Shown here piece after piece: positions 12,504 through 52,487 of a DNA stretch of 64,000 bases. Source of the DNA: Verrucomicrobium sp. GAS474 (GTDB lineage Bacteria > Verrucomicrobiota > Verrucomicrobiia > Methylacidiphilales > GAS474). Below the pieces are notes generated by a model. That model saw nothing but the letters and a program-made list of their open reading frames with translations, was not told the origin of the DNA and made no database searches. How positions within the stretch are numbered: the first letter of the stretch is position 1; each line of letters opens with the position of its first letter. The stretch spans positions 1,798,001 through 1,862,000 of the forward strand of contig NZ_LT629781.1 in assembly GCF_900105685.1 (NCBI RefSeq). The letters run 5' to 3'. The position numbers and the translations under genes were made by a program.

Positions 12504-12510
12504 ACGCGGT

Positions 12511-13575: not shown

Positions 13576-13580
13576 GGGGA

Positions 13581-14078: not shown

Positions 14079-14092
14079 GTTCTTCGCCTGGC

Positions 14093-33352: not shown

Positions 33353-34762
33353 TCAGGCGGTAGTGAGAACCTCGTTGCCCTCGAATCGGCACCCCTTCAC
33401 CTCGAACCCTTCGACATCATCCTGGACGAGGCCGGGACGAACATCCTCCCCCTCGAGCCGCGCCCGCACATCGCGGAAGACGATGTCGCTGGCGTGACGG
33501 AGGTAAAAGCCCCAGGCGGGAAGCTCGCCGAACTGGTCATACTCGGGATAGTCGGCCCGACTCTCGGGCACCTCGTTGCCGGGAGTCAGGATCGACTCGG
33601 GGGCGTGGAGACCGCCTCGGTAGAGCAGGCGGATATTGCTGAGCGTGATTGCCTCGATCTTCGCGTCGGGGAGGCCGACGATCGCGCTGGGCAGGGGATT
33701 CAGCCGAGGTTCGTGCCGGGGGGCGCGGAATGGATAGCCGGCGTCGGCATCGAACCCGGTGACCTCGGCGACGACATTGGAGATCGTCACCTGCCGGAGG
33801 GCCCCGACGTTCCGGTGGGCGGCGTTGCGGCGGCTCCGGTCGCCGAGGCGGAGGTAGATCGCGTTCCCGACGTTGCGCATGGTGACGTTCGAGACGGCGA
33901 CCTGCTCGAGCGTCCCGCCGTCGACGACCTGGAGGGTGATGCCGGAACGGGCGGTGTCGAAGATCACCACGTTCGAGATCGAAATGTTGCGGAAGCCCTG
34001 GCTCGAGGCGGTGCCGCACTTGATCCCGCTGGCGCTGCTCCGGACGACGCAGTCGGAGATGACGACATCCTCGACGGGGAGGTGCGTCGACTTGAGGCAG
34101 ATGCCATCGTCGGCGGCGTTGATGTGACAGCCCCGAATCACGACCTCGCGGGAGTCGCACAGGTCGAGGCCGTCGTTGTTCCACGCGGAGATTCCCTCGA
34201 CCCGGAGATTTTCTAGCCGCAGATCGACGCACCGGGAATAGCTCTGCATCCAGGAGGCCCCCTCCTCGAGGGTCAGACCGGAAACCTCGCAACGGCGGCA
34301 CTCGACGAGATTGATGAGAAGGGGGCGGTATTTTTCGTCGATCTTTTTCTGGGGGCCGACCGGGGGATAGTGGTGGGCAAAAGCCTCGCAAAGGCGGGAG
34401 CCGTTGCCGTTCAGTGTCCCCCGGCCCGTGATCACGACACCATCTAGGCCGTGGCCCAGGAGGAGGGAATACCAGCAGGCGGAATCCTGGCCCTCGACCG
34501 GGACGCCGGTCTCGGGAATGCGCTGATAGGCCTCTCTCTCGAGGCTTCCGATAAGCACGGCACCATACCCGAGCTCGAACTGGATGTGGCTTCGCAGATG
34601 GATCGTCCCGGAGAGATAGCGGCCCGGCGGAAAGAGGACGGTGCCCCGCGCCCGATGGGCCGCCTCGACGGCGGCCTGGATCGCGGCGGTGTCGTGCGTC
34701 GCGCCGTCGGCCTTGGCGCCGAAGTCCTGGGGAGTGAAGACGAAAGAGGAGGGGGAGGGCAT
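33353..34762 (-). CDS. GH28-like polygalacturonase/rhamnogalacturonase (atypical active site)
   Basis: A 469-residue right-handed beta-helix protein. FVFTPQDFGAKADGATHDTAAIQ opens the fold in the usual way. NND at 195-197 and ADD at 217-219 match the first two GH28 acidic motifs. The classical GHG and RIK motifs are absent; in their place is SSASGIKCGTAS at about 242-253, a variant known from a bacterial GH28-like clade. It probably acts on galacturonan or rhamnogalacturonan ends. No signal peptide is seen. The ATG at 34762 lies 11 bp after the AraC stop. Second gene of the pectin operon. Confidence 0.83.
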   Translation of the reverse strand: MPSPSSFVFTPQDFGAKADGATHDTAAIQAAVEAAHRARGTVLFPPGRYLSGTIHLRSHIQFELGYGAVLIGSLEREAYQRIPETGVPVEGQDSACWYSLLLGHGLDGVVITGRGTLNGNGSRLCEAFAHHYPPVGPQKKIDEKYRPLLINLVECRRCEVSGLTLEEGASWMQSYSRCVDLRLENLRVEGISAWNNDGLDLCDSREVVIRGCHINAADDGICLKSTHLPVEDVVISDCVVRSSASGIKCGTASSQGFRNISISNVVIFDTARSGITLQVVDGGTLEQVAVSNVTMRNVGNAIYLRLGDRSRRNAAHRNVGALRQVTISNVVAEVTGFDADAGYPFRAPRHEPRLNPLPSAIVGLPDAKIEAITLSNIRLLYRGGLHAPESILTPGNEVPESRADYPEYDQFGELPAWGFYLRHASDIVFRDVRARLEGEDVRPGLVQDDVEGFEVKGCRFEGNEVLTTA

Positions 34763-36592: not shown

Positions 36593-37210
36593 TTAGGAGG
36601 CGGGGACGATCGTGATTTTGATCGGGAACTGGGTGTCGTTCGGGTGGGCCTTGAGGTCGTATAAGAATTGGAAGCTGTAGGAGTTGCTGTTGAAGAGGCG
36701 GTTGTCCTGGAGGCCGTACCAGTTCGTCGGCACCTCGATGATCCAGCCGTCCTTCGTCGGCGCGGTGACGGAAAACTTCGAGATCGCCGAACCCTGCTCG
36801 ATGAACTGGCTCCCCTTGTCGACGGGGAAATCCTTCGGCGGGTTGGCGCCGAAGGCGTACTTGCCCCCGTTGTTGAAGGAGAGCGGGACGCCGAGTTGGA
36901 ACTTGAAGCCGCGCGCGTTCGCCGGGAGGTTCGAGAAGACGAAGATCACCTCATCCCCCTGCACCTTGCATTCGACCTTCGCCCCCGACGGGTAGACTGC
37001 CGTCCCGATATCGTTGGCGACGTCGAAGGCGGGCTGCTCGTTCCCCTTGTCGAGCTGGAGCGCGGGGGCCGAAATGACGAACTTGCCGGCAGTGCCGGCG
37101 TCGAACTCGATCCCCTTCGGGACGAGGACCGGTCCAGCGGCGAGCTTTCCCGCCAGGCAGACGAGAAGGAGGGGAATCAGGGAGAGATGAGTCAATCGGG
37201 ATGTTTTCAT
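36593..37210 (-). CDS. Secreted protein homologous to the agarase-like enzyme's N-terminus
   Basis: A 205-residue protein with a signal peptide (about 1-24, ending KLAA). The whole mature part aligns with residues about 30-200 of the next upstream protein (37241-40066): FDAGTAGKF, NEQPAF, a FKFQLGVPLSFNNGGKY block, SQFIEQG and YGLQDNRLFNSNSY each have close counterparts there. It is probably an independent beta-sandwich, perhaps a carbohydrate-binding or adaptor module. It is the last gene of the cassette 2 operon, 30 bp after its paralogue. Confidence 0.8.
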   Translation of the reverse strand: MKTSRLTHLSLIPLLLVCLAGKLAAGPVLVPKGIEFDAGTAGKFVISAPALQLDKGNEQPAFDVANDIGTAVYPSGAKVECKVQGDEVIFVFSNLPANARGFKFQLGVPLSFNNGGKYAFGANPPKDFPVDKGSQFIEQGSAISKFSVTAPTKDGWIIEVPTNWYGLQDNRLFNSNSYSFQFLYDLKAHPNDTQFPIKITIVPAS

Positions 37211-37240
37211 GGCGGATGATTTGGATTTGGTGTTTGTTAT

Positions 37241-40066
37241 TCAGTTTTCAATGATGCGGGCCCGGCCCCAGGCGCCGCGGTCGCTCGAGTTCTTCGCGTT
37301 TCCGTTCCACATCAGTTGATGCCGGCGGGCGAGGCCGTCGTCGCTGTTGTCCAGGCCGATGTCGAAGAGAAATTCGGTACCCGCCTTCGGCTCGACGCCG
37401 AGGACGCTCCACGGGATCGCCGCCTCAAGGGTGTAACCGTCGCCGGTCACGCTCTTGACGGTTAGCATCCGGATGGCCGCGCCGAGTTCCGGGTTGTCGA
37501 CGACCCACGCCTTCGGCGTGGCCGCCGCGCCGAGGAGGACTTGGCGGTCGCTGAAGATCATGCTACCTCCCTGGTCGGGGCTCTTCGACCCGACGAAGAG
37601 CTCGAAGCCGTCGCCGTTGTAGAGAGCCTTCGCCTCGCGCTCGTTCTTCAGCGGGGTGGCGTCCTTCACCTCGGCGAGGAAGTAGAGGTTCTTCTCGTCC
37701 CAGCAGAGGCGGAAGTCGGCGCGGAGGTCGGGATTGGGGGGGCCGTTCACCTGGTTCTTCGGGGTAAGAGGCTCGGCCGGACGGCCCGGCCAATGGCTGG
37801 TCGTCCCGTCGAGCTCGAGGCCCGGAAGCGCCTTCGGGATCGTCGCGACCTTGCCCGATCCGCCCGGCTTCCCGGCGGCGAAGCGCGGGTCGTCGAAGGC
37901 GAACGGCTTTTCCCTGCCCAGCATCACGGGGTAGATCCGGTCGTTGGTCTCCTTCACCTGAGGGATGAAGTCGGCATAGGGCCGATCGGTCACGTCGACG
38001 AGGCCGCTGTTGTTCCCCTCGCCGTTGAATCCCTCGAAGAAGCGGCCGGTGATCGACTGGTCGCCGTAGATGAACCACTGGGAGCCGACGACGAAGGGAA
38101 GCGAGGCCGATTGCTCGATGTAGTTCCGGTAGGCGAGGCCGCGATCCTTTTGATTCGCCACCTCCTTGCCGCCGTTCAGGCCCATCTCGCTCGAGCCGTA
38201 GTACCACTCGCTGAGGATGATCGGCTTGTCGCCGCTCCATTCGTGGACCCGCTTCAGGAAGTAGGACTCGATGCCGTAGGTATAATAATTGACGGTGACG
38301 ACGTCGAAGTACTTCGAGGCGGTACGGACCACCAGCTCGTTGCCCGCCGTTCCCGGCGTCCAGCGGCTACCGAGGAGAAGGTGGTTCGGGTCGTGCTTGC
38401 GGAACGTCCGCGAGATCATTTCGTAGTAGGTGTCGAGGTAGACCTTGAGGTAGTCCCGCATGTCAACCTCGGCGGCGTCGGTCCGGATGAAGAGCGGGGC
38501 GTCGGGTAGATCGTCCCACGAGGCGAAGGAGGTCGCGGGATTCCAGGCCGCGTTGAACTTCCCGATGTCGCCGTACTTCGCCTGCAGCATCGCGACGAGC
38601 TTCACCTTCGCCGCGACGCCGCTCTTGTAGGTCGGCACGAGCTTCGGGATGTTCTCGAAGTGCTGCTCGTTACCGAAGGAGTAGCCGATGAGGAGTGGAT
38701 CGGTGACGAAGGGATCGACCTTCGCCGTGAAGGCCTTGTCGAGCGCCTCCTCGTTTCCCGGCGCGAAGGGGTCCATGACGAAGCTCGCGCCGAGGCGGTC
38801 GGGGAGCGACTTGATCGCATTGCCGTTCACGGGAAGGCTCCCTGTGTAGGGGAACTGGAGTTCCTTCATCTTCGCCGACTGGAGGGAGAAGGCGCCGGCC
38901 GAGTTGAAGCCCCAGGCGCGGAGCCGTTCGACGACCTGGCCCGTCCACTCCTCGAAGGTGTAGGGGCGGCCGAACTTCCGGATCCAGTTCGCGATGAAGA
39001 AGGAGAACGCGCCGGGCGTGCCGGGGCGCCAGGCCGTGGCGAAGTCGCCGCCCGCCTCGGGGACCCACTCGTAGATCTTCTCGCGGCCCCGGACCGTCGT
39101 GAAGTCGTCGGTGTTCGCGATGCCGCAGACGCCGAGCTGGTAGAAGGCGTTGCCGTCGGGGTCGACGAGGAATTGCCGCTCCCCGGCGGTGCCGACGTGG
39201 AAGAAGCCGGTCTTCGTCAAATGGAACTCGACCCCGCTTCCGGCCAGGCCGCCGAAGACGTCGCGCGGGGGGCCGCCCGGGGCGGGAAGAGCCGCCTTCT
39301 GCTTCTCGACATCGTCCTTCAATTCCTGCTCGTCCTTCACCTTGCCCGGGTAGTCCTTGCGGGCCGATTGGCCGAACCGGTCGACGAGGAAGACGCGCGG
39401 CCCGGCGGGGACGGCGGGAGAGGGCGACGCAGCAGCGGCAGCGGCGGGCGCGGCCCCCGCGTCGAGGGTCCGGACCGAGAAGGCGAAGTAGCCCTCGGCC
39501 TTCCCGCCGGTGTCGACCTGGCAGATGAAGACGTACGATTGCGAGCTGAAAATCCGGTTGTCCTGCAGCCCCGAATAACCGCCCGGCATCTCGACGGCGA
39601 AGCCGTTTCCGAGGGGATCGGCGAGGCGGAAGGAATTGGCGTTGCCACTCTCGACGAACTGGGCGCCCTGCTCGGCGGGGATCGGCTTGAGCGGGGCGCC
39701 GTTGAAAGAGTAGGTTCCGCCCTGGTTGAACTTCAACGGGATCTTTAGGTTGAATTTGAAGGCCTTTGAGGGTGCCCCCTGCGTGTAGTGGAAGGTGATC
39801 TTGCCCGTCGCCTTGTCGACCTTCATGTCAAGGAGGACTCCCGAGGCATAGGTCGCCCGGCCGCCATCGCCCGAGGGGGCGAAGGAGGGTTGCTCGTTCG
39901 GCCCCTCTTTCTTCAGCAGGCCTGGAGCACCGAGGGTGAACTGGCCCGCGCTCCCCGCGTCGACGAGGATGCCCTGGTCGTTGACGCCGACGGTGACCGG
40001 ATCGGCGAGGAGGGGGACAGAGGGAATGAAGGCGGCGAGGAGGGCGATGGCGAGGCGGGTTTTCAT
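37241..40066 (-). CDS. Large secreted agarase-like glycoside hydrolase with CBM9-like domain
   Basis: A 941-residue secreted enzyme. Signal peptide about 1-21. Residues about 25-200 form a domain shared with the small protein encoded next. An Ala/Pro/Ser linker follows (about 205-225). The TIM barrel covers about 270-690, opening TKTGFFHVGTAGERQFLVDP, the start typical of GH50/agarase-like enzymes. YSFGNEQHFENIP contains the acid/base candidate and ILSEWYYGSSEMG the nucleophile candidate. The last 200 residues (CWDEKNLYFLAEVKD, DGFELFVGSK) are a CBM9-like sugar-binding domain. The substrate may be agar, porphyran or a related beta-glycan. It lies 22 bp after the cassette D gene, so it is co-transcribed with a pilin-like cassette. 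Confidence 0.82.
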   Translation of the reverse strand: MKTRLAIALLAAFIPSVPLLADPVTVGVNDQGILVDAGSAGQFTLGAPGLLKKEGPNEQPSFAPSGDGGRATYASGVLLDMKVDKATGKITFHYTQGAPSKAFKFNLKIPLKFNQGGTYSFNGAPLKPIPAEQGAQFVESGNANSFRLADPLGNGFAVEMPGGYSGLQDNRIFSSQSYVFICQVDTGGKAEGYFAFSVRTLDAGAAPAAAAAASPSPAVPAGPRVFLVDRFGQSARKDYPGKVKDEQELKDDVEKQKAALPAPGGPPRDVFGGLAGSGVEFHLTKTGFFHVGTAGERQFLVDPDGNAFYQLGVCGIANTDDFTTVRGREKIYEWVPEAGGDFATAWRPGTPGAFSFFIANWIRKFGRPYTFEEWTGQVVERLRAWGFNSAGAFSLQSAKMKELQFPYTGSLPVNGNAIKSLPDRLGASFVMDPFAPGNEEALDKAFTAKVDPFVTDPLLIGYSFGNEQHFENIPKLVPTYKSGVAAKVKLVAMLQAKYGDIGKFNAAWNPATSFASWDDLPDAPLFIRTDAAEVDMRDYLKVYLDTYYEMISRTFRKHDPNHLLLGSRWTPGTAGNELVVRTASKYFDVVTVNYYTYGIESYFLKRVHEWSGDKPIILSEWYYGSSEMGLNGGKEVANQKDRGLAYRNYIEQSASLPFVVGSQWFIYGDQSITGRFFEGFNGEGNNSGLVDVTDRPYADFIPQVKETNDRIYPVMLGREKPFAFDDPRFAAGKPGGSGKVATIPKALPGLELDGTTSHWPGRPAEPLTPKNQVNGPPNPDLRADFRLCWDEKNLYFLAEVKDATPLKNEREAKALYNGDGFELFVGSKSPDQGGSMIFSDRQVLLGAAATPKAWVVDNPELGAAIRMLTVKSVTGDGYTLEAAIPWSVLGVEPKAGTEFLFDIGLDNSDDGLARRHQLMWNGNAKNSSDRGAWGRARIIEN

Positions 40067-40088
40067 AGGTGGAGTGGCAATGCGAGAA

Positions 40089-40709
40089 TCAGGGGTGAAA
40101 GAGCCGGATAGTCCCGTTGCCGGGGACGATCTGAATGGTTGCGTAGTTCCCGCCGTCGTGGAGCGGCTTGTCTCGCTCCATGACGAGGGTGACGAAGCTT
40201 TCCGCCGAGGCGAGGTCGGTGCCGCCGCCGGGAAGGAACTGGAAGGCGACCTGCCGGTAGTTCATTCCGTAGTAGGGGAGGGCCGTGTCGGTCGCCCCCG
40301 GCGGGGAGGCGGCGCGGGAGACGAGGAGCCCTCCTTCGGGAGCGGACGTGGCGAAGACGGCGGGCTCGTCGAAGGCGACCAGCTTGCCGAGGGGGACGGC
40401 GTCGCTTTCTTCGATGACGAAGAGGCGGAAGGCGCGGAAGACGGCAGGCCCGTCGGTCGGCTTCGTGCCGTACTCGGGGAGCTTGTAGAAACGGACCTCG
40501 ACGGGAAGACCCCGGGTCTGGCTTGTCTGGCGGGCGAGGTTGCACTGGTCGATGACCTGGCGTCCGGCGGCGTTGAATTTCGAGACCCGAACCATCCGAA
40601 GGAAGGAGGGGAGCGACATTCCGGCGAGCAGCCCCATGATGACGAGGACGACGAGGATCTCGACGAGGGTGAAGCCTCCGGCGCGGCGATGGGAAGCGGC
40701 GGCGATCAT
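40089..40709 (-). CDS. Verru_Chthon cassette protein D, cassette 2
   Basis: A 206-residue pseudopilin. The leader MIAAASHRRAGG precedes FTLVEILVVLVIMGLLAGM, with Glu at +5, then a helical stretch (RQVIDQCNLARQTSQTRG) as in GspH-like proteins. It is last in the pilin block (B-C-A-D) and overlaps the end of gene A by four bases. In cassette 1 the D gene is first instead, so the gene order differs. Confidence 0.86.
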   Translation of the reverse strand: MIAAASHRRAGGFTLVEILVVLVIMGLLAGMSLPSFLRMVRVSKFNAAGRQVIDQCNLARQTSQTRGLPVEVRFYKLPEYGTKPTDGPAVFRAFRLFVIEESDAVPLGKLVAFDEPAVFATSAPEGGLLVSRAASPPGATDTALPYYGMNYRQVAFQFLPGGGTDLASAESFVTLVMERDKPLHDGGNYATIQIVPGNGTIRLFHP

Positions 40710-43700
40710 GGCGCGAATTTCTTCACCGCGACGACGCGCGTCTTGTAGAACTGGCTGAGCGGGGTGGTCACCGTCAGGTCGGCATAATCGGGAAGGGCCT
40801 TGGTCGCGGGATCGACATAGCGTTCCACCGTTTCACTCCCGCGATATTCCCCGACGACGAGGTCTCGCCCGTCGCTCCATGTCGTGGGATCGCTCCCCGT
40901 CCGTTTCTGCAGAACTTGGACCCGGGCGTGGACGGTGTAGGTGTTCGACTTCGTCGTGAGACGGGGATAGATCGTCGCGTAGGGCCGCTCCCGGCTGTTG
41001 TCCCCGGTGAGGCGGTGGCTCTTCCAGTAGGTTTCCATCGTGTCGTAACGCCCTCCCTGCGGGACAATCTGGATGTCGCAGATCTCGCTCGCGGACCTAA
41101 AGAGGTCGTTCGCCGCGAAGCGTTGCTCGAACCCCTTGAGCGTCTCGTCGGGATCCACGTCGTAGCGGACGGTGACGTTCTGGGACCCGTTCCCCTGGAG
41201 CTTGTATTGGGAGACGTTGCCATCGGAGATCGCGATCACCTTCTCCCCCTCCAGCACCGCGCGGACGCCGGTATCCCGCCGCAGGTAGGTGAAGGGAACG
41301 ATCTGGTAATTCATGTTGATGCGGCCCGCCGCCGAGAAGGGCTCGCTGATTGCGTAGGGCTCGACGACGGGCATCGTGAAGAGGTCGAGGAGGAGGTGAT
41401 CCTTCGGAGCGGCGAGGCCGGGATGGCCGAGCGGGCCGGGCCGGAATTCGAGGGTCTGCCACGGCAGGCCCGCCCAGACGCCCGTCGGCAGGGAGCCGAA
41501 CATGACCGCGGAAGGCATCATCCGATTGGGGGAGAAGAGGGTCGTGTTGACGTTGACGTTGCCCGTCACGTAATAGGGGGGGGAGGAGCTGTCTCCCTCG
41601 TCGGGCCGGTTGATGTAGGGGCCGTCGGCACGGTAGGCGACGCCGTTGTCCCAGTCGGCCTGGAGGTCGGCCGCAGTGGCGGCCCCGTTCTTGCCGAGGG
41701 CGACGCCCGAGGTGAAGTTGTCGGGAACGGTCGAGGAATCGCGGGGGAAGGCGCTGTTCATTCCCGGATTGTTGCCGATGGCGGGATTCAGCTCGTAGCC
41801 GCTGAGATAGACTGCCGCATAGCTGGCGTAGGAGAGGGGAAGGAGGCGCCCCCCGGTCGCGTGGTAATAGGGCGTGTTGTTGCCGTTGCGCAGGTTATGG
41901 GCGTAGGCAGTCGTAGAGTCGGCATACGCGCTGTGCGGCGCGAACAGTTTTGAATAATCGGCGTCGCTCGCCAGGAGTGTCTTCCTCGGCGAGACGAGGC
42001 GGAGGTCGCCGACCGCCGGAACAATGGAACGGACGACATCGGCGCTGGTGATCCACGAGACCAAGACGGCGTTCCCGGTGCCCTGGAAGCGCGAGGTGCT
42101 CGAGGAGAGGTTCCGGTAGATGATCGTGCCGTTCTCCCCCGCCAGGTGGGGGACGGGGAGCGTCCCGGAGGGGAAGGCGAGCTGCAGCGACTGACAGACG
42201 GTGGTCCCGTCGGGCGCGAGGATTTCGACGGTGACCGTCCCGCCCGAAAAGACAAAGGTGGGAGCGGGCGCGATGTCGGCGCTGGCACCGGGCGGACGCG
42301 GGTGGAGCATGTTGATCGCGTTGCTCAGGAAGGTCGGCGTGTATTGTCCGTAAGCGGCCTCCATCGCCCCGACCGATCCGCCGTAGCCGTTGTCGCCCCA
42401 GATCGTGTAACCGTTGCTCGGCTTCATATCGATCTTCCCGGTGTTCGTTTGCGTGAACATCCCCACGGGTGGTGTTGCCGCGCCGGTCGAGTCGACCCCC
42501 GTCCAGCGGAAGGTGTCGAGGCCCGAGATCCTGTACGAGAAGTTCGGGCAGAGGTAGGGGTGGCCGAGCGAGGGATCGTAGAACTGCGGGATAAGGAAGG
42601 CCCGCACGGCGATCTGGTCGCTCCGGGGCGGGACGGCGGTCTGTCCGGTCTTCGTCGCGTCGGTGTCGCGCGCGCCGACGAAGACGATCGTCGCCCCCTG
42701 CAGGGTGGGGAAGCGGCCGAACCCCCGCGTCGCTGTCTGGGTGTCCTCGATCGGGACGACTTGCCCTTGCCCGGCCTTGTTCGCCCCGCCGACGAGCGAC
42801 GGCGCGAAGGGGATCGCCGCCGTCGGGTCGAGGAGGTTGGTCGATCGGATGTAGTCGAAGATCTCGGTGAGGATCTGGTTGCGGTCCTTGGTCCCGTACT
42901 TCGTCTCGAAGTTCCCGCCGAAGCCGGGGATCTCCCGCGAGGTCAGCCCCCGCAGGTATTCGAGGAGAGCCCGGTTCCGTCCGAGGCCCGTGCTCGCCTT
43001 TGCGGCAGGAAGGTCGGACGTCGGGCTCTGGGGGTTGCTCCGCTGGAAATAGAAGAGGTTGCCCCCGATCGTCGAGCAGAAGGCGATGAGGCGATCGAAA
43101 GCCGAGGTGTGTGTGGCGTCGAGATTTAGGTATTCGGGCCAGATCGAGACCCGGGGAAGGTTGAAGAGGTTGACTTCGGGCGACCGACTCGAGGCGGTGA
43201 GGAAAAAGCGGAAGCGCGGGAGGGTGTCCTGGTTGAGGACGGTGCTGTTGTTGGTCCCCCTCTCCCCGCCTGTCACGGCGGGCTTGAAGAGGAGCTCGTC
43301 GACGTCGGCGTAGAGGCGGTCGAAATCGGGAGTGATCGTGGCGCTCGCCGTCGTCGTCCCTTCCATCGAAGTCCCGGTTCCGCCCTTCACTCGAGGGGCC
43401 AGCGCGTAGATCTCCTCCTGGCTCAGGGTCGGGAAGACGGTCCGGAGCGATGTCGTTGCAGGATGTCCAGGATAGCGCTGATACTCATGCTGGGCGGGTT
43501 GGTATTTCCCAAGGTTGCCGTCCTCGAGGCTGCTCGTCGTAGGCGTGTCCCAGTAGGTCCCCGAGGCGGCGGTGTTGATGTTCACCTTGCAGCTCTCGTC
43601 GTCGGTCCAGAAAGCGACGCGGCCGACGATCGGATTCGATGACGATGCCCCGGATATCTTTGCCTGAGTTCCCCCGCTTCCCGTGGCGGGGGCGGCGATG

Positions 43701-44335
43701 GTGCCGTCGGCGAGGACGTAGAGCCACTTCACCGGCATCGGCGCCACGTTGGCCGAAGCACCCGAGGCCGTCGGCGCCCCGGTGACCGAGAACCCCTTCA
43801 CTGTCGGGCTCTGGTAGGCGAGCGATCCCCCGCCGGCCGCCGTCAGGCCGTTGCCGTCGATGATCGGATAGAGCGTTTTCCCCCCGATTTTCATCGGGGC
43901 GTTGAGGTCGGTGAAGAGGGCCGTCCTCGCGCTCCAGTCGAGCGGCACGGCCTCGGCGGTCGCCGTGGGAACGAAGGCCCCTGTCCCGATCATCTTGTCC
44001 CACGAGTAGAGCTTGAAGTACTGGCCTGCCGCGCCGGTCGCCGAATAGGTTCGGATCATCCCGGGTTGGGAGGCCCAAGCCACGGCCTTCCCGGCGGTGT
44101 CGACTCCCTTCGTCGCGGCGGTGATCTGGGCGATGGCGAGGTTGAAAGCCGACTGAGCGAGGAGCCCCGCCGCGCCACCGTCGGCGTACCGTTTCGACGA
44201 GTTCCTCTCGCTCGAGATGCTGGCGAGGAAGGCGATGGCGAGGGAGGCCGTCAGCACCAAACACGAGAGGACGAGGAGGAGCGCCACGCCGCGCCGCGGC
44301 CGGACCCTCTCCGGAGCCGGGATTAAAGCCCCCAC
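40706..44335 (-). CDS. Verru_Chthon cassette protein A, cassette 2
   Basis: A 1209-residue exported protein. After a basic leader (PERVRPRRG) comes VALLLVLSCLVLTASLAIAFLA, a GspK/PilX-like hydrophobic helix without Glu5. The rest is Ser/Thr/Asn/Gly-rich and resembles cassette 1 protein A in general layout. Shared landmarks include TDRLF/DRLY blocks, Phe-Asp-Tyr IF segments and a region near FRSVADMGY/FRSASEICDIQ. The C-terminus differs from cassette 1 and lacks the VEGERRYW block. It starts at GTG 44335, 13 bases inside gene C. Probably the large tip or minor component of the structure. Confidence 0.87.
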   Translation of the reverse strand: MGALIPAPERVRPRRGVALLLVLSCLVLTASLAIAFLASISSERNSSKRYADGGAAGLLAQSAFNLAIAQITAATKGVDTAGKAVAWASQPGMIRTYSATGAAGQYFKLYSWDKMIGTGAFVPTATAEAVPLDWSARTALFTDLNAPMKIGGKTLYPIIDGNGLTAAGGGSLAYQSPTVKGFSVTGAPTASGASANVAPMPVKWLYVLADGTIAAPATGSGGTQAKISGASSSNPIVGRVAFWTDDESCKVNINTAASGTYWDTPTTSSLEDGNLGKYQPAQHEYQRYPGHPATTSLRTVFPTLSQEEIYALAPRVKGGTGTSMEGTTTASATITPDFDRLYADVDELLFKPAVTGGERGTNNSTVLNQDTLPRFRFFLTASSRSPEVNLFNLPRVSIWPEYLNLDATHTSAFDRLIAFCSTIGGNLFYFQRSNPQSPTSDLPAAKASTGLGRNRALLEYLRGLTSREIPGFGGNFETKYGTKDRNQILTEIFDYIRSTNLLDPTAAIPFAPSLVGGANKAGQGQVVPIEDTQTATRGFGRFPTLQGATIVFVGARDTDATKTGQTAVPPRSDQIAVRAFLIPQFYDPSLGHPYLCPNFSYRISGLDTFRWTGVDSTGAATPPVGMFTQTNTGKIDMKPSNGYTIWGDNGYGGSVGAMEAAYGQYTPTFLSNAINMLHPRPPGASADIAPAPTFVFSGGTVTVEILAPDGTTVCQSLQLAFPSGTLPVPHLAGENGTIIYRNLSSSTSRFQGTGNAVLVSWITSADVVRSIVPAVGDLRLVSPRKTLLASDADYSKLFAPHSAYADSTTAYAHNLRNGNNTPYYHATGGRLLPLSYASYAAVYLSGYELNPAIGNNPGMNSAFPRDSSTVPDNFTSGVALGKNGAATAADLQADWDNGVAYRADGPYINRPDEGDSSSPPYYVTGNVNVNTTLFSPNRMMPSAVMFGSLPTGVWAGLPWQTLEFRPGPLGHPGLAAPKDHLLLDLFTMPVVEPYAISEPFSAAGRINMNYQIVPFTYLRRDTGVRAVLEGEKVIAISDGNVSQYKLQGNGSQNVTVRYDVDPDETLKGFEQRFAANDLFRSASEICDIQIVPQGGRYDTMETYWKSHRLTGDNSRERPYATIYPRLTTKSNTYTVHARVQVLQKRTGSDPTTWSDGRDLVVGEYRGSETVERYVDPATKALPDYADLTVTTPLSQFYKTRVVAVKKFAP

Positions 44336-45300
44336 TTGGCTCCTTTCATGACCACCGTGGTGCGGTAGACGCGGTAGGAGAGATGCCGCCCGGAGAGCGT
44401 CGCCCCGATCTGCTTCAGGTCGTTTTCGAGGAGGGAGGCAGTCTTGAACAGATTGGCCGTGCCGAGGTCGGGAGCGCCTTCGGTGTTCCCGAGGTGGAGG
44501 GCCGAGGTCTCGTCGATGGCGACAAGGATGAGGTCGACCAGCGGCGGCAACTGGTTTTCGTTCGGTTTCTGGGTCGAGTTGGCCGCAGTGGCCGAGGTCG
44601 CTCGGGAATCGTATTCGTAGTCGGGGGCGAGGACGATGCCGCCGGTATCGGTCGAGGCGGCGCGGGGGAGAATCACGAGGGCGATCACGTTCTCAGCAAG
44701 CGGATGTGAAGGCGGCGAGGACGATGCGAGCGGAGTGGTGAACCAGAGGCGGCCCGCCCCCAGCGCGGGATCGTAAATGGCGAGCTGTTGCGCGGGCTGG
44801 AGGAATTGCATCAGCCGGAACCGCCGAAGCGGCGGTGCGGTGTTCGGCAGCGAGGCGAGGAAGGAGGGGCGCTCCGGGTCGGCCCCGTATTGGACGTAGT
44901 AGCCGCACCCGTTGAGAAGGCCGCCGAGGTTTTGATAGGCGGTCTTGTCGGTCGAGCCGAGTGGCACCTGGAAGAAAACCGCGTGAGTGATTTGGCCGGG
45001 AACGAGCGCCTTTCCGGAGATGAAGTGGAGATCCGATTTCCTGAGGTACCGAGTCGGAGCTGTGGCGCTGTCGTAGTCGTAATACGCGTTGAGCGTCGCC
45101 TGGCCGAGCTGGGAGGAGATCGTGTCGAAGGCGGCGCGGGCAGCCTGGAATCCCTCGATCTTCGATGTGGAATGCTTCCACGTCGTCGAGATCAGGGAAC
45201 TGATTTGGAGGACAAGGACGAGGATCACCGAGAGGATCACCACGGCGGCGAGAAGCTCGAGGATCGTAAAGGCGGCAGCGGCGCGGCGCGCGTCTTTCAT
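44323..45300 (-). CDS. Verru_Chthon cassette protein C, cassette 2
   Basis: A 325-residue pseudopilin. The mature start would be FTILELLAAVVILSVILVLV with Glu at +5. The residue before the cut is Ala (RRAAAA), not the usual Gly, which prepilin peptidases tolerate less well. The helix continues into KIEGFQAARAAFDTISSQLGQATLN, as in GspJ-like proteins. It lies 25 bp after gene B and overlaps gene A by 13 bases. Confidence 0.86.
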   Translation of the reverse strand: MKDARRAAAAFTILELLAAVVILSVILVLVLQISSLISTTWKHSTSKIEGFQAARAAFDTISSQLGQATLNAYYDYDSATAPTRYLRKSDLHFISGKALVPGQITHAVFFQVPLGSTDKTAYQNLGGLLNGCGYYVQYGADPERPSFLASLPNTAPPLRRFRLMQFLQPAQQLAIYDPALGAGRLWFTTPLASSSPPSHPLAENVIALVILPRAASTDTGGIVLAPDYEYDSRATSATAANSTQKPNENQLPPLVDLILVAIDETSALHLGNTEGAPDLGTANLFKTASLLENDLKQIGATLSGRHLSYRVYRTTVVMKGAKWGL

Positions 45301-45325
45301 CGGGATCGGTTCCGGATCTTGCGCG

Positions 45326-45775
45326 TCACTGCCGGGGGATCAGGATCGAGTAGCGGGCGGGCGCAGCGGAAAGCTTGCGGCTCTGGATGGTGATGGCGAC
45401 GGTCGTCCCCGCGTCGGAGGCAAGGTCGGCGACGCTGGCGGAGCGGGTCTCAATCTGGGCGGTGAACTGTCGGACGGGATCGGAGGCGGCGACCTCGGTC
45501 CCCTGCTCGTCGTAGTAATGGGTCGAGGCGGCGAGGGCGGTGTAGTCCGACTGGACGAGGTCGTTGATGAGTCCCTGGGCGATCTGGGTCTGGACCGTGA
45601 TGTTGATCGTGTCGCGCAGAGTCGTCAGCCCCATCGGGATCATCCCGAGGACGCCGACCAGCGCGAAGCTGACCACGCCAAGCGCCAACGCTGTTTCGAT
45701 CAGAGTGAATCCCCCCCGCCGCCTGCCATCGACTCCTTTGTGCTCGACGGCCTTCACACGCCTGCCGCGCCTCAT
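45326..45775 (-). CDS. Verru_Chthon cassette protein B, cassette 2
   Basis: A 149-residue pseudopilin of the GspI-like type. The basic leader ends RRRGG before FTLIETALALGVVSFALVGV, with Glu at +5. The sequence after the helix (MIPMGLTTLRDTINITVQTQIAQGLINDL) parallels cassette 1 protein B (LLVVGMKTNTDTVEQSVAAGLARAV). It overlaps the stop of the PEP-CTERM gene by four bases (ATGA), showing that the PEP-CTERM protein belongs to the same operon. Confidence 0.86.
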   Translation of the reverse strand: MRRGRRVKAVEHKGVDGRRRGGFTLIETALALGVVSFALVGVLGMIPMGLTTLRDTINITVQTQIAQGLINDLVQSDYTALAASTHYYDEQGTEVAASDPVRQFTAQIETRSASVADLASDAGTTVAITIQSRKLSAAPARYSILIPRQ

Positions 45776-46722
45776 GCGATCTCCTGGTGCCGGGGCCGGG
45801 CGGAGCGGCGGGCCGCCGCCGCGCAGGCGAAGGCAAGGACGCCGAACCCGGCCAGCGCGAGGGGCGAAGGTTCGGGAACGGCGCTGAGGGTTGCGACGTT
45901 GGCCTGCACCTGGGTGGCAGTGAGCACGGTCGAATAGAGTGCCAGTTCGTCGATGGTGACGGCGGAGGCGGCGAGGTTGGCCGCCGTGGTGCTGCCGCGG
46001 ACGTCGGCCGCGGCGACGAAGAAGGAATTTCCGAGGGCCGAGAAGGTGTCGGCCGAAGTGAGCTTGTTCGTCACGCTGCCCAGCGTTTGGGCGACGCCGT
46101 TGACGTAGACCGTGACGGGGGTGGAAGAGGTGAGATCGAACGTGAAGGTCAGGTCGACGAAGTTGCCGCTGTAAAGGGCGGCGTTCGTGAACGTGGCCGA
46201 GAAGGTGTCGGCCAGAGTGTCGGCCCGGATGAAAATACGGGTCGTCCCCGCCGAGAGCGTGCCGCTCGAATTGCTGTTCAAGGTGATCGAAAAGGCATCG
46301 TTGGTCGCATTCTGCGTCTCGCCGAGCAGAACCCCCAAGGCGCTGCTGTTTGTACTCAGAAGGAACGCGATCGTCGACGACCCCAGCGACGACCCAAAAC
46401 TGTTCGCTCCCGTAAGACTCGCGTATTGGCTGTTGGCGTTGAAATAGGTCGCCGTGTCGCTGCCGCCGCCGTAACCGGTCGTACCGAGTGTCGGCGAGCC
46501 GAAGTAGGCCCCGTTGTGTGCGTTGCCCGACGAATCGGTAAGGATCGAGCCGCTGTCAGTGAAATGATAGAGCGCGTAGGGATTGTTCGCCGCCAATGCC
46601 GCCTCGTAGGCGGTCGGCGCAGCCTGGGTCGCATTCATGGTGAGCCAGAGCACTCCCATCCCCATCATGCCGAGGAGCCGAACCGGTGAAGTCATATTAT
46701 TCATCAGTCGCGTTGTCGTCAT
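45772..46722 (-). CDS. LamG-type PEP-CTERM protein leading cassette 2
   Basis: A 316-residue secreted protein. The N-terminus carries a signal peptide (VRLLGMMGMGVLWLTMNATQA). The body is a concanavalin-A/LamG-like beta-sandwich: ALYHFTDSG..LTDSSGNAHNGAY near the start, DLTFTFDLTSSTPVTVYVNG in the middle, and VTIDELALYSTVLTATQVQA at the end. The C-terminus is a PEP-CTERM signal: VPEPSPLALAGFGVLAFACA followed by RRSARPR. The ATG at 46722 was chosen; AGGAGG lies 12 bases upstream. It may be a glycan-binding surface protein delivered with the pilin-like system. Confidence 0.86.
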   Translation of the reverse strand: MTTTRLMNNMTSPVRLLGMMGMGVLWLTMNATQAAPTAYEAALAANNPYALYHFTDSGSILTDSSGNAHNGAYFGSPTLGTTGYGGGSDTATYFNANSQYASLTGANSFGSSLGSSTIAFLLSTNSSALGVLLGETQNATNDAFSITLNSNSSGTLSAGTTRIFIRADTLADTFSATFTNAALYSGNFVDLTFTFDLTSSTPVTVYVNGVAQTLGSVTNKLTSADTFSALGNSFFVAAADVRGSTTAANLAASAVTIDELALYSTVLTATQVQANVATLSAVPEPSPLALAGFGVLAFACAAAARRSARPRHQEIA

Positions 46723-47076: not shown

Positions 47077-47248
47077 GAATAGTTTTATGGCCTGCTTCGT
47101 ACTCCTTAAGGAGATCGATTTTAATCTGAGGATCTGAAAGATCGGGGTCATTTGTGGTTCTGGCGCGGTGTCCCGTTGTCGGCGCAGCGTGGAAGGCGGC
47201 GAGCGGTTTGCGTTCGGCTTTTTCTTGGGAACTCGCTATCGAGAGTCC

Positions 47249-48118
47249 ATGGGGGAAGGTTTTTCATTGGACGGGAAGTCGATGCAGGCGGTCTATGTCT
47301 TGTGGGACGAGCTCGGGGCGTTTCCGGCGGGGGAGTCCGATGCGGCTTTGAGTCATCTCTTTGACTGGCTGGCGAAAGGGATTGGGGCCGATAACGTCAT
47401 CTGGATCGGTGCGGTGCGGCTCTTGCGCGGTGCGGCGGCGAAGGACGATCCCTTCGGGGGATGGCGTTTGCGGACCCGGCAGACGATGCATCCGGATAAT
47501 CCCGAATATCGGAAGCTCATCGCCTCCTACTACGATATCGAGCATTACAGGAAAGGAGGAGGCTCCCGGATTGAAGGCCGGAGCCGGGTCAGGGCCCTCC
47601 TCCATAGCGGCATGACGGGCCGCACGATGTTTGCTCAGGCAGGTCACTTTCGGGTTCATCGGTTGCGGGACGGCTGGATCGATTACGCTGCCTTTGCAAA
47701 GACCGAGCACTACGACGTCTATTATCGCCGACAGGGGATTGCCGATCGGATGCATGCGGGCTTCCCTCTCAATGTCGACGCGGAATCGATCTTTATGATT
47801 GATCGATACAAGGCCGGACGCGTCTCCCGCAAAGCCTTCACCGATCGGGAGAAGGCACTTGTCGAGATGGTGCTGCGGGGCGTTCGCGAACTCCATCGGC
47901 GTCTGTTCCTTGAACGCGGTCTCCTTATGGGGGAGGTTCCCCTGACGCTGCTGCAACAGCGGGTTCTTCGGGGGCTCCTGACGAAGATGACGGAGAAGGA
48001 ACTGGCCCGGGAAATGGGTCAGCAACCCCGGACGCTGCACAAGTACGTCACCTCTCTCTACGCCCGCTTCGGCGTCCAGAGCCGGGCAGGACTGATGGCG
48101 ATGTGGTTGGGTCGTTAG
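47249..48118 (+). CDS. LuxR-type transcriptional regulator
   Basis: A 289-residue protein. The C-terminal 65 residues (LTLLQQRVLRGLLTKMTEKE, then LAREMGQQPRTLHKYVTSLYARFGVQSR) form the LuxR/GerE helix-turn-helix. The N-terminal 200 residues match no sensor domain recognised here; an aromatic-rich stretch (GWIDYAAFAKTEHYDVYYRRQG) could be a ligand- or partner-binding domain. No phospho-acceptor receiver domain is present. The ATG at 47249 was chosen; 47282 and upstream alternatives remain possible. The two-partner secretion genes start 157 bp downstream in the same direction, so it may control them. Confidence 0.8.
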   Translation: MGEGFSLDGKSMQAVYVLWDELGAFPAGESDAALSHLFDWLAKGIGADNVIWIGAVRLLRGAAAKDDPFGGWRLRTRQTMHPDNPEYRKLIASYYDIEHYRKGGGSRIEGRSRVRALLHSGMTGRTMFAQAGHFRVHRLRDGWIDYAAFAKTEHYDVYYRRQGIADRMHAGFPLNVDAESIFMIDRYKAGRVSRKAFTDREKALVEMVLRGVRELHRRLFLERGLLMGEVPLTLLQQRVLRGLLTKMTEKELAREMGQQPRTLHKYVTSLYARFGVQSRAGLMAMWLGR

Positions 48119-48275: not shown

Positions 48276-51200
48276 ATGAAAGCAATGGGCCGTCGCCGGG
48301 GGAAAGTTTCGTTTCAAAACGCCGTACTGCGTGGCCTCGCGCCCGCCTTGCTGCTGGGCCTCTGGCCTGTCGCCCTGCTGGCGAACCCCACCGGCGGAAC
48401 GGTTGTCTCCGGCTCGGCTACGATCGCGACGAACGGCAATACGCTCAACGTCAACACGGGGAGCAGCCAGACGATCATCGACTGGAGCCACTTCGGGATC
48501 GACGCCGGGGAAATCACCAACATCAACCAGCCGAACAGCGGTAGCACCACGCTGAACCGCGTCATCGGCGGCAACGTCTCTGCCATCTACGGCACGCTGA
48601 ACTCCAACGGCAACGTTATCCTCATCAACCCGAACGGCGTCCTCATCGGCGCGGGCGGCGTGGTCAACACCCAGAGCTTCACCGCCTCCACCCTCGACCT
48701 CTCGAACAGCGACTTCTTGAACGGGGTCCAGCACTTCACCGGCACCAGCACCGCCAGCGTCGTCAACTTGGGGCAGATCACCGCCAACGGGGGCGACATC
48801 TTCCTGATAGCCCAGCACGTCAGCAACGGCGGGAGCCTCACCGCCCGCAACGGCACTGTCGGCCTTGCCGCCGGAACCGATGTCACGATCCAAGCCGGCG
48901 GGACGGGCAACCAGCGCCTCTCCGTCGCCCTCGACAGCGCCACCGTCGCCCGCAACAGCACCGGAGTGGACAATCAGGGAACCATCGACGCAGTGAAGGC
49001 CGAGTTGGTCGCCAACGGGAACATCTACAGTCTCGCCGTCAACAACGGCGGAATCATCCGAGCCACCGGCAGCGGCAACGTGGGCGGCCAAGTCTGGCTC
49101 CTCGGCCATGGCGGCACGGTGAAGAACACCGGCACGATTACGGCAAAGAACGCCGACGGCCGGGGCGGGAAAATCGAGACCAGCGGCGATGTCGTCTCGG
49201 TCGCGGGCATGGTCCAGACGGGTGCGGGCGGCCAATGGCTGATCGACCCGCTTACCCTCGACAATAGCACCGACATCGCCGTCGCCACCCTCCAGGGCCA
49301 GCTCGAATCGGGCGATGTGCAGGAACAGGCGACTTCCTCGATCACCCTCAACGAGAGCCTCTCCTGGTCGGGCACCGGGACGTTGACCCTCCAAAGCGGC
49401 ACCATCGACCTCAACGGCGCGATCACCGCCGGGAGCGGCGGATTGACTCTCACTGCGGCGGGCACGATCACCGCCTCGGCTGCGATCAGCGTCGGGAAGT
49501 TCACCCTCACTTCCGGGAACTGGGTGCAGAACGGCTCCTCGCTCCCTTCCTTCTACGCGCGCGACTTCACGCTCAGTGGCGGCACCTTTCTCCGCGTCCT
49601 CGGCGGCGACGGCTCTTCCTCCACGCCCTATCTCTTGGGCGACGTCTACGGGTTGCAGGGAGTGAAAGGGTTCCTCTCCTCGGACTTCACCCTTGCCAAC
49701 GACATCGACGCGAGCGGGACGACGGCCTGGAACGGCGGTTCCGGGTTCGCTCCGATCGGATCGAGCTATCCCGGATACGGCGGGACCTTCAACGGGGCCG
49801 GCCACATCGTCGACGGGCTGACCATTCAGAGGACCGGCACGAACGATGTCGCCCTCTTCGGCCTTTCCCTTGGGGTCATTGAGAATGTCGGGCTGACCAA
49901 CGTTGTGATCAACGGAAACGGTTACGTGGGCGGATTGGTGGGGGCCAATGGGGGGACGGTGACGGGCAGCTACACCACGGGGGTGATATCGGGCGTGCTC
50001 TATGTCGGCGGCCTCGTCGGGTACAACACCGGCACGATCACGAACAGCCACTCCGATGCCAGCGTGGGTGGCTACCAGAATGTGGGCGGCTTGGCGGGGT
50101 ATAACGCCAACCTCATCGACCTCTCCTACGCCACCGGAAACGCGACGGGAACGCTCCAGATCGGCGGCCTTGCCGGGTGGGACACCGGAACGATCCGGCG
50201 GAGTTACGCGACGGGGTACGTCCGCGCCACGAGCACGCTGGCCGGTGGTCTGGTCGGTTATCTCGATGCCGGGGGCCTGGTCCAATATAGTTATGCGACG
50301 GGGGCGGTCTACGGCTTCTCCAGCGCCGGCGGTCTGGTGGGGGAGATCTATGCGGGCGCCTTGATCGACGGGTGCTATGCGACGGGGGCCGTCGACTCTT
50401 ACTACAACGCGGGAGGCTTGGTGGCGGTGGCGCAGGGAGGCGCAATCCAAGGCAGCTACGCCACGGGCGTGGTGACTTCCTCTTCGGGCTGGAATGCCGA
50501 ATTCTTGTGCCAGGGATATGTTGGGATTGCGAACAGCTATTGGGCCACCGACACGGGGAGCCCGAACGGGTTCTGGACGACATCGGGCTTCGTGAACGAT
50601 TCCTCCGGCCTGACCCTGGCCCAATTGACCGACGCCGCCAATTTCCAGCCGCTCAGCGGAAACTGGGATTTCACCGCCGGCACGGGCGTCTGGGGGGTCA
50701 AAGGGTACACCGATACGGGGTTGATCAACGGCGGCCTTCCCTACTTCCAATGGCAGTATCCGACGATCGCCCTCACGGCGTCGAACCAGACCGCGGTCTA
50801 CGGCCAGTCCCAGTCCGCAAACCTCTCAGCGGTCTTGGGGACGACGTATACTGTCGCGGGGCTCGGCACCGCGAACCTCTCCGATTACCTCTCCGGCACC
50901 CCCACGCTTTCCAAGGTCGGCAGCAATAGCACCGTCGGTACGACGAACGTCCTGACGATCGCCGGCACGCCGACGGCGGGCCACGCCGTCGAGTATGTCG
51001 CCGGAACGCAAAGCTTCAGCCCGGCCCCCCTCGAAATCACGGTCTCCTCCCAGAGCAAGACGTACGGAACCAACCAGGCGCTGAATGGAACCGATTACAC
51101 CATCACCGCCGGGCAGCTTTACAACAGCGATTCCCTCATCAACATCAGCCTCTCCAGCAGCGGGGCGACGGCGACGGCGAACGTCGGCACCTATGCGATC

Positions 51201-52487
51201 ACGGCGGGGAATCCGCTCGGCTACGGATTGGGCAATTACCAGATCACCTACATCGACGGCGTCGATACGGTGACCCCCGCCTCGTTGGTCGTCGTGGCGG
51301 GCAACGGCTCGAAAACGTACGGAACGGCGCAGACGCTCTCCGGGTACAACCTCTACGGGCAGCTTTACAATGGAGACAGCCTCACTGCCGTGACGCTCTC
51401 CAGCGCAGGATCGTCCGCGACGGCGAACGCCGGAACCTACGCGATCACGGCGGGCGCCGCGACCGGATCGGGCCTCGGCAACTATCAGATCGCCTACGTC
51501 GACGGAGTCGACACCGTGAATCCCGCCCCCTTGACGATCGAGGCGGGAAGCGCGACCAAGACCTACGGCACGGCCCAGACCTTGAGCGGGTACGGAATCA
51601 CAAGCGGGTCCCTCTACAATGGGGACACCCTTTCCTCCGTGACGCTCTCCAGCGGTGGAACGGCGGCGACGGCGAGCGTCGGGGCCTACGCGGTTACGGC
51701 GAGCAACGCGACCGGATCGGGTCTCGGCAACTATCAGATCACCTATGTCGACGGAGTCGATACGGTTAACCCGGCCACGGTGATGCTGACCGTGGGGAAC
51801 GCGACCAGCACGTACGGAAGCGCGCCGGGTATCTCGAACATCCAGATCGGAGCGTCCGGCCTCGTCAACGGCGAAACCGTGGCCGACCTCGGTTTCGTGA
51901 CGACGACCTCGGTCACCGCATCGACCCATGTCGGCACCTACTCCTTCACCACCTCGGCGGGCAATTCCAACTACAACTACATCTACGCCACCGGCAACGC
52001 CGGGACGTGGACGGTGACCGCCGCGCCGCTTACCATCACGGCGGGCAACATCACCCTCACTACGGGAAGCTCGCTTCCCGCCCTCGGCGTGAGCTACGGC
52101 GGCCTCGTCAACGGCGACACTTCCGCGGTGGTGAGCGGATTGACGGTGACCACTTCGGGAACCGGCGCTTCGGCGGGCAAGTATGCCATCATCCCGGGGA
52201 ACGGAACGGCTTCCGATTACCTCATCACCTTTGTCGACGGCTTCCTCACGGTGAACTCCCCCGTGGTGGAGCTAGGCTCCGGTCCCAGCGCCCAGCTTCC
52301 GAACGGGGAGACCGTCACGATCCCCAGCGCGGCCTTCAGCCCGAAGATATCGATCCCGAACACGGCTTCTTTCGCGGGCGTCGGTGCCCGTGGGGGAGTG
52401 TTCTCTCCCTTCGGCGGCGGCGTCTCTTCGGTCGGTCGTATGGGGGCGAGGGCTTCCTCCAGTGGTGTGGCCTACATCGACCAATAA
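48276..52487 (+). CDS. TpsA-type exoprotein with haemagglutinin, GLUG and MBG repeats
   Basis: A 1403-residue secreted protein. A long basic signal peptide (about 1-36, ending ALLA) precedes the haemagglutination-activity/TPS domain (about 37-190), with NTGSSQTIIDWSHFGI, INQPNSGSTTLNRVIGG and ILINPNGVLIGAGGVVNT as hallmarks. GLUG-type repeats (VGGLVG.N.G.I..SYATG) lie at about 549-740. Six MBG-like repeats of about 84 residues (TKTYGTAQTL, LYNGDSL, YQITYVDGVDTV) fill about 830-1340. The C-terminus has no clear membrane anchor. The partner TpsB gene starts 12 bp downstream. The protein should cross the outer membrane through TpsB and form a beta-helical fibre at the surface or be released. Likely roles are adhesion to surfaces or polysaccharide. 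Confidence 0.92.
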   Translation: MKAMGRRRGKVSFQNAVLRGLAPALLLGLWPVALLANPTGGTVVSGSATIATNGNTLNVNTGSSQTIIDWSHFGIDAGEITNINQPNSGSTTLNRVIGGNVSAIYGTLNSNGNVILINPNGVLIGAGGVVNTQSFTASTLDLSNSDFLNGVQHFTGTSTASVVNLGQITANGGDIFLIAQHVSNGGSLTARNGTVGLAAGTDVTIQAGGTGNQRLSVALDSATVARNSTGVDNQGTIDAVKAELVANGNIYSLAVNNGGIIRATGSGNVGGQVWLLGHGGTVKNTGTITAKNADGRGGKIETSGDVVSVAGMVQTGAGGQWLIDPLTLDNSTDIAVATLQGQLESGDVQEQATSSITLNESLSWSGTGTLTLQSGTIDLNGAITAGSGGLTLTAAGTITASAAISVGKFTLTSGNWVQNGSSLPSFYARDFTLSGGTFLRVLGGDGSSSTPYLLGDVYGLQGVKGFLSSDFTLANDIDASGTTAWNGGSGFAPIGSSYPGYGGTFNGAGHIVDGLTIQRTGTNDVALFGLSLGVIENVGLTNVVINGNGYVGGLVGANGGTVTGSYTTGVISGVLYVGGLVGYNTGTITNSHSDASVGGYQNVGGLAGYNANLIDLSYATGNATGTLQIGGLAGWDTGTIRRSYATGYVRATSTLAGGLVGYLDAGGLVQYSYATGAVYGFSSAGGLVGEIYAGALIDGCYATGAVDSYYNAGGLVAVAQGGAIQGSYATGVVTSSSGWNAEFLCQGYVGIANSYWATDTGSPNGFWTTSGFVNDSSGLTLAQLTDAANFQPLSGNWDFTAGTGVWGVKGYTDTGLINGGLPYFQWQYPTIALTASNQTAVYGQSQSANLSAVLGTTYTVAGLGTANLSDYLSGTPTLSKVGSNSTVGTTNVLTIAGTPTAGHAVEYVAGTQSFSPAPLEITVSSQSKTYGTNQALNGTDYTITAGQLYNSDSLINISLSSSGATATANVGTYAITAGNPLGYGLGNYQITYIDGVDTVTPASLVVVAGNGSKTYGTAQTLSGYNLYGQLYNGDSLTAVTLSSAGSSATANAGTYAITAGAATGSGLGNYQIAYVDGVDTVNPAPLTIEAGSATKTYGTAQTLSGYGITSGSLYNGDTLSSVTLSSGGTAATASVGAYAVTASNATGSGLGNYQITYVDGVDTVNPATVMLTVGNATSTYGSAPGISNIQIGASGLVNGETVADLGFVTTTSVTASTHVGTYSFTTSAGNSNYNYIYATGNAGTWTVTAAPLTITAGNITLTTGSSLPALGVSYGGLVNGDTSAVVSGLTVTTSGTGASAGKYAIIPGNGTASDYLITFVDGFLTVNSPVVELGSGPSAQLPNGETVTIPSAAFSPKISIPNTASFAGVGARGGVFSPFGGGVSSVGRMGARASSSGVAYIDQ
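51033..52260 (+). repeat. Tandem MBG-domain repeats inside TpsA
   Basis: Five units of roughly 240-255 bp begin near 51033, 51286, 51532, 51782 and 52033, with a more distant unit near 50765. Units two and three are the most alike in DNA (CGACGGAGTCGA..CACCGTG and CTACAATGGGGACA type blocks recur). Such repeats can expand or contract by recombination and change fibre length. Confidence 0.8.

Follow-up and report, generated by a model that had tools for sequence, protein, structure and literature searches.

The apparent operon at positions 36593-46722 of the window (the whole 64,000-nt stretch of DNA analysed here) from Verrucomicrobium sp. GAS474 (phylum Verrucomicrobiota; genome 3.76 Mb, one contig) is, on balance, probably a glycan-degradation locus with its own pilus-tip gene set, the tips of different loci being interchangeable on a shared core. 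All of the evidence comes from sequence and predicted structure. How Verrucomicrobiota unite their enzymes with large polysaccharides is poorly understood, and this reading would give a multi-copy four-gene set of unassigned function a testable role, as tips suited to particular substrates or cargoes and mounted on a common pilus or secretion core.

The apparent seven-gene operon

Seven open reading frames on the minus strand between 36593 and 46722 are confirmed, with support from a codon-usage gene caller, and their coordinates bear out the sequence-only reading of seven same-strand genes joined by overlaps or gaps of at most 30 bp. From the head of the operon (LamG/PEP-CTERM, B, C, A, D, GH50-type hydrolase, small secreted protein) the junctions are, in order, an overlap of ~4 bp, a gap of 25 bp, overlaps of 13 and 4 bp, and gaps of 22 and 30 bp. 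The exact start of A, on which the 13-bp C/A overlap depends, is uncertain; for the head gene, an alternative upstream GTG at 46752 is likewise open. The features are as follows, with coordinates given as positions within the window.

45772..46722, minus strand: secreted LamG-like protein, C terminus of PEP-CTERM type, at the operon head (Laminin_G_3, PEP-CTERM and partial NF038129 matches)
45326..45775, minus strand: cassette protein B (TIGR02598; 62 bits, cut-off 51.4), predicted GspI/PilV-type minor pilin
44323..45300, minus strand: cassette protein C (TIGR02599; 312 bits, cut-off 256.5), predicted GspJ/PilW-type minor pilin
40706..44335, minus strand: cassette protein A (TIGR02600; 1001 bits, cut-off 332), 1209 aa, predicted GspK/PilX-type minor pilin with a very large insertion
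40089..40709, minus strand: cassette protein D (TIGR02596; 107 bits, cut-off 70), predicted GspH/FimU-type minor pilin
37241..40066, minus strand: secreted GH50-type hydrolase with a C-terminal CBM9 (6xj9/4bq2, E 3e-48; CBM9_1, 64.5 bits)
36593..37210, minus strand: small secreted protein, super-sandwich (42% identity to the hydrolase N-terminal domain)
47168..48118, plus strand: predicted LuxR/GerE-type regulator, divergent, on the promoter side of the operon (GerE 24.3 bits, cut-off 23.5)
33353..34762, minus strand: GH28 polygalacturonase-like gene downstream of the operon (Glyco_hydro_28, 59.5 bits)

The genes for A, B, C and D are adjacent and each product scores above its NCBIfam cut-off, which places the set within the Verru_Chthon cassette (TIGR02596, TIGR02598, TIGR02599 and TIGR02600), whose family names carry no function. 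A literature search by cassette name, with subscription journals outside its reach, found no paper using Verru_Chthon. The gene set itself had already been described; what is added here is the tip-complex reading, the linkage to carbohydrate genes locus by locus and a GH50-specific clade of A.

No sigma-70-like promoters were found inside the operon region (0, compared with 0.9 in shuffled sequences) by a scan that is poorly suited to a G+C-rich genome, a result that would fit a single transcript without amounting to proof. The divergent LuxR-type regulator gene adjoins a gene for a 1,403-aa protein (48276-52487, plus strand) with a filamentous-haemagglutinin-type adhesin-like start and repeated modules.

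The head protein, which had been described as a lectin, contains a LamG-like domain (Laminin_G_3, 28.6 bits; cut-off 27.6), a PEP-CTERM motif that falls just short of its cut-off (19.8 bits; cut-off 20.7) and a partial match to NF038129. The domain assignment stands as a likeness, and a glycan-binding role may be inferred from it.

Resemblance of the cassette proteins to tip minor pilins

The cassette looks like a set of the minor (pseudo)pilins that make up and prime pilus tips, with D, B, C and A as the putative counterparts of GspH/FimU, GspI/PilV, GspJ/PilW and GspK/PilX. Loss of the glutamate at mature position 5 (Glu5) marks the tip proteins GspK and PilX of T2SS pseudopili and type IV pili (PMC7541494). 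Among the homologues recovered from 80 loci fetched from other genomes, Glu5 is present in B (38/39), C (59/62) and D (53/53), but in only one of the 70 A proteins. The cassette therefore shows the pattern of a T2SS tip set, that is, prepilin-type N termini with Glu5 in the counterparts of H, I and J and not in that of K. This pattern, together with the GspK profile, supports the pseudopilus interpretation put forward from the sequence alone.

The focal A matches the GspK model at E 4e-4, with a score of 19.9 bits that is under the curated cut-off of 130; the canonical GspK of the same genome likewise falls under this equivalog cut-off (85 bits versus 130). In hhalign comparisons A and GspK align at the N terminus over the first ~60 residues (prob 82-88; 88 for the focal A). 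The likeness is limited to these ~60 residues in A of type 1 (the TIGR02600 type), and an additional match near the C terminus (prob 54) is seen in A of type 2, a second cassette type of this genome. Searched over 60 genomes, the GspK model returned, among the matches listed, canonical GspK and mainly long A-type N termini. D aligns with the GspH of the genome (hhalign prob 96) and, in a PDB profile search, with type IV pilins over the N-terminal helix only. The profiles do not separate pseudopilin classes for B and C, and their equation with GspI and GspJ is mainly positional. For B, C and A of either type, profile searches of the PDB gave nothing useful.

The AF2 model of the A protein (pLDDT 83.6, pTM 0.87) has an N-terminal helix at model residues 6-65. 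Comparison of this 1200-residue model with PDB folds found nothing significant (best Foldseek E 0.03; VIA Z <=4.7) and no known carbohydrate-binding fold. Because large models hide single domains, the null result is no argument against a relationship to GspK.

Cassette copies and core machinery

The genome contains seven type-1 cassettes and 11 type-2 cassettes, the latter found with a profile of their own, giving a total of at least 18 from candidates that were partly scored. The two types are homologous in B, C and D (hhalign prob 98-99) and, over the N terminus, in A (prob 96). Most type-2 sets run D-B-C-A, which is the gspH-I-J-K order, and the focal set runs B-C-A-D.

Canonical T2SS genes (GspE/F and G-H-I-J-K-L-M..D) are present in the genome, with the core genes at G000:C1 2087758-2099938, away from the focal operon. 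A T4P-type core is also present, with PilB/C/T/M-Q-like genes that include two PilB-like and two PilT-like genes. About 40 of the 48 N-methylation (prepilin) sites in the genome lie in cassettes and four in the T2SS operon. The cassettes resemble additional tip sets that lack their own core.

A second cassette in the window, of type 2 (9258-14833, minus strand), comprises A (9258-12503), C (12511-13575), B (13581-14018) and D (14093-14833); near it are genes for a sugar MFS transporter (15014-16486), a GH78-type alpha-L-rhamnosidase (16519-18945) and a PEP-CTERM protein (20485-21273). Elsewhere, a few kilobases that contain the gene for a large secreted protein separate a type-2 B-C-A set from a second gene for a GspD-type secretin (G000:C1 1114469-1125723; L087, L141), and an orphan gene for a D-type pilin, unaccompanied by B, C or A, adjoins a GH1-like beta-glucosidase gene (L245:7047-7883, equivalent to G000:C1 893046-893882).

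Carbohydrate genes around the cassettes

Almost all of the cassettes lie in or beside carbohydrate loci. Two genes on each side of 18 cassettes (72 proteins) were compared with 79 genes from 20 random places, an approximate measure of enrichment as some of the surveyed neighbours are short or distant ORFs. The 72 neighbours include five sugar MFS transporters and five LacI-type sensor domains, as well as GH2, GH5, GH1, GH35, CBM9, heparinase-like, LamG, PATR and PEP-CTERM proteins. None of these carbohydrate families occurs among the 25 listed for the 79 random genes. Further hydrolases near cassettes belong to GH42, GH78, GH106, GH92, GH2 and GH5 or are lyase-like, and some cassettes have no nearby hydrolase. 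Each of the four GH50 genes in the genome has a cassette no more than 3 kb away (expected 0.23, p ~5e-5), where the p-value, like that for PEP-CTERM proximity, treats paralogues as independent.

The hydrolase and the small secreted protein

The hydrolase consists of an N-terminal super-sandwich domain, a GH50 catalytic domain and a CBM9 at the C terminus (CBM9_1, 64.5 bits). Its membership of GH50 follows from the homology of the catalytic domain to the solved agarases 6xj9 and 4bq2 (E 3e-48) and from the two clan GH-A glutamates, for which the residues are as in Aga50D (PMC11079163): Glu467 (after Asn466) and Glu620 are invariant across the four paralogues, and the acid/base position is also visible in the aligned 4bq2/4bq4 pair. 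Compared with Aga50D and its relatives, with which it shares these features, the focal hydrolase has the super-sandwich domain and the CBM9 in addition.

The earlier label 'agarase-like' is sound as a statement of GH50 homology, and does not imply the substrate. Most characterized GH50 enzymes are agarases, but beta-1,3-glucanases and a beta-galactosidase are also members of the family (PMC11079163). GH28 polygalacturonase-like genes are found near GH50 in the window and in L060, L148 and L192, so a pectin-related galactan would be as plausible a substrate as agar.

The small secreted protein, noted previously only as such, can be described more closely as a free-standing copy of the N-terminal domain of the hydrolase (42% identity to residues 17-187). 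Its AF2 model (pLDDT 89) aligns in VIA with 5wzr (Z 12.6, r.m.s.d. of 3.4, 181 aligned) and with the aldose 1-epimerase 3nre (Z 11.7, r.m.s.d. of 3.5, 178 aligned), and Foldseek assigns it the super-sandwich fold of galactose mutarotases and of the non-catalytic domains of GH2, GH31 and GH129-type enzymes. No PEP-CTERM motif was found in either the hydrolase or the small protein.

Pairing of GH50 hydrolases with A

In relatives, GH50-CBM9 genes have a cassette within ~10 kb in five of the eight loci with enough context, in several families. The gene caller, trained on the GAS474 genome, overlooked some genes in other genomes. No cassette was found within ~10 kb in L121 and L122, and L125 has a lone pilin-like gene only. 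Strains LR76 and SCN18 also have the components of the focal operon (B-C-A-D, the small protein, a PEP-CTERM or PATR protein and GH50), in a different order. A general link between GH50 and cassettes was considered and rejected: one (L135) of the ~10 other GH50-like loci in relatives has a cassette, and the link is restricted to those GH50-CBM9 enzymes that also carry a super-sandwich domain.

The focal order of all seven genes was found nowhere else. Its parts are rearranged in L120, L123, L143, L148 and L192, and GH50 can be upstream or downstream, or on the opposite strand, so that the seven genes are not a conserved unit and the proposal of a single machine encoded by one operon is not supported. 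One half of the refuting condition set by the sequence-only reading was the lack of any conserved cassette-hydrolase link beyond this operon, and it did not refute the reading: in our survey the link is strong within the genome, appears again in further genera and families and, for GH50, is lineage-specific. As a whole, that interpretation is partly supported.

The tree built from 84 A proteins places all 10 GH50-adjacent ones in a single 13-member clade (SH-aLRT 98). The GH50 label changes three times on the tree, compared with 9.4 times when shuffled (0/5000), and the clustering holds after dropping near copies or own-genome paralogues (0/5000 and 4/5000, with six rows left in the 4/5000 test). 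The 80 loci are the nearest matches to the A proteins of the GAS474 genome, some of which are themselves GH50-linked; the GH50 clade is therefore over-sampled, which does not by itself create clustering. Several genomes represented in the GH50 clade carry other A paralogues, without GH50, that fall outside it, and species kinship therefore does not explain the pairing. As judged from this tree, the pairing of A with GH50 is lineage-specific. Co-inheritance of A lineages with hydrolase families would offer a route to predicting the substrates of other cassettes.

In L147 (strain LW23), the gene for an A protein of the GH50 clade is surrounded by housekeeping-like genes, and no B, C or D was called alongside; this is possibly a decayed or relocated cassette.

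Proposed mechanism and alternatives

In the mechanism that we propose, induction of a locus would lead to the assembly of its tip set on a shared T2SS/T4P core, and the large A protein would presumably give the tip its specificity for that locus. That specificity could be for the Sec-exported products of adjacent genes, the hydrolase and the binding proteins (export), or for the polysaccharide itself (capture). Of the two, we lean slightly towards T2SS export of the adjacent hydrolase rather than a T4P that captures polysaccharide. A broader generalization, 'one pilus tip per polysaccharide', is put forward tentatively: dozens of GspHIJK-like tips, each co-inherited with a hydrolase lineage and its locus, would be mounted on one shared secretion/pilus core, where they would export cognate enzymes or seize cognate glycans and so fill the role of SusC/D in Bacteroidota.

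That each cassette is a pseudopilus tip of a cargo-specific T2SS, recognizing the hydrolases and binding proteins that its locus exports through Sec and pushing them out, is a possibility to be held with reserve. The GspK-type A, the gspH-I-J-K order in type-2 sets, the canonical T2SS in the genome and the second GspD gene near a type-2 cassette are all consistent with it. GspD is found in 20 of the 25 genomes with type-1 cassettes, compared with 14 of the 34 without (Fisher p 0.004, uncorrected for kinship). In another member of the Verrucomicrobiota, a PulG-like pseudopilin is reported to be over-expressed on alginate, and T2SS export of alginases was proposed (PMC13274419). However, a strict dependence of the cassettes on a T2SS is unsupported, as five cassette-bearing genomes (G001, G016, G021, G039 and G045) have no strong GspD match, including one of the same genus that is 95% complete (G001), and many small genomes have GspD but no type-1 cassettes. 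T2SSs with one tip already secrete numerous cargoes, which also counts against this possibility.

The same gene sets could instead encode the tips of retractile type IV pili, each binding one polysaccharide and pulling it towards the surface or into the periplasm, an explanation that we consider doubtful. The necessary type of core is present, with its two PilB-like and two PilT-like genes, and the operon encodes LamG-like and super-sandwich domains of carbohydrate type. Precedents come from Myxococcus xanthus, in which three minor-pilin/PilY1 sets serve one T4P machine and different substrate recognition has been suggested (PMC7541494), and from Planctomycetes of the same superphylum, in which gold-labelled dextran was seen on pili-like fibres (PMC5394234). 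Against capture, no PilY1-like adhesin is named in the annotation of the cassette neighbours, the profile likeness of A, in comparisons made with GspK, is to that protein, and A has no known carbohydrate-binding fold by Foldseek and VIA.

Block copying or transfer of whole loci could bring cassettes and hydrolases together with no functional tie between them. The loci do duplicate, and a single genome holds paralogues of both GH50 and the cassette, but the hydrolase families vary between cassettes and the GH50-A pairing is kept at ~44-52% identity of A despite rearranged order and strand, making this explanation unlikely. Least probable is that the cassette serves a PEP-CTERM/exosortase pathway of surface display to which the hydrolase is linked indirectly: the genome has one exosortase (131 bits) and 15 of the 26 PEP-CTERM sites cluster within 10 kb of a cassette (expected 2.9), but the other 11 are farther off and the hydrolase and small protein have no PEP-CTERM motif.

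Comparison with known systems

Interchangeable tips on a shared core, the reading that we prefer, have a parallel in the FimU-PilV-PilW-PilX/PilY1 clusters of M. xanthus, where several four-pilin tip sets likewise serve one pilus machine and differing tip recognition has been suggested (PMC7541494). There are three sets in M. xanthus, all of which include PilY1 and are described without a tie to sugar loci (PMC7541494), whereas GAS474 has many sets accompanied by carbohydrate genes and no annotated PilY1. Verruconatronum alginivorum, also of the Verrucomicrobiota, shares the link to polysaccharide, with 67 copies of PulG-like pseudopilins in its genome and one induced on alginate; these are PulG-like proteins rather than four-gene tip cassettes, and no pairing with hydrolase lineages is noted in the available portion of the report (PMC13274419). 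None of the M. xanthus, alginate and dextran precedents demonstrates the system proposed for GAS474. The polysaccharide-utilization loci of Bacteroidota (SusC/SusD) serve as a working analogy, with one surface apparatus per glycan locus together with a regulator, transporter and hydrolases, and no homology is claimed.

With the T2SS GspH-I-J-K set the cassette shares four prepilin-like proteins, an A that lacks Glu5, the likeness of A to GspK and of D to GspH and, in type 2, the H-I-J-K gene order. It differs in the size of A, ~1,200 aa compared with 328 aa for the GspK of the same genome. In addition, the cassette lacks core genes, is present in at least 18 sets per genome, runs B-C-A-D in the focal operon and has an A that scores under the GspK cut-off.

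A third, shorter class of A-like proteins, with open frames of ~880-930 aa, was observed at G010:C11, G010:C20, G010:C32, G020:C12 and G020:C31. Their match to TIGR02600 covers the N terminus and a more internal part, and they may form a bridge from A to canonical GspK.
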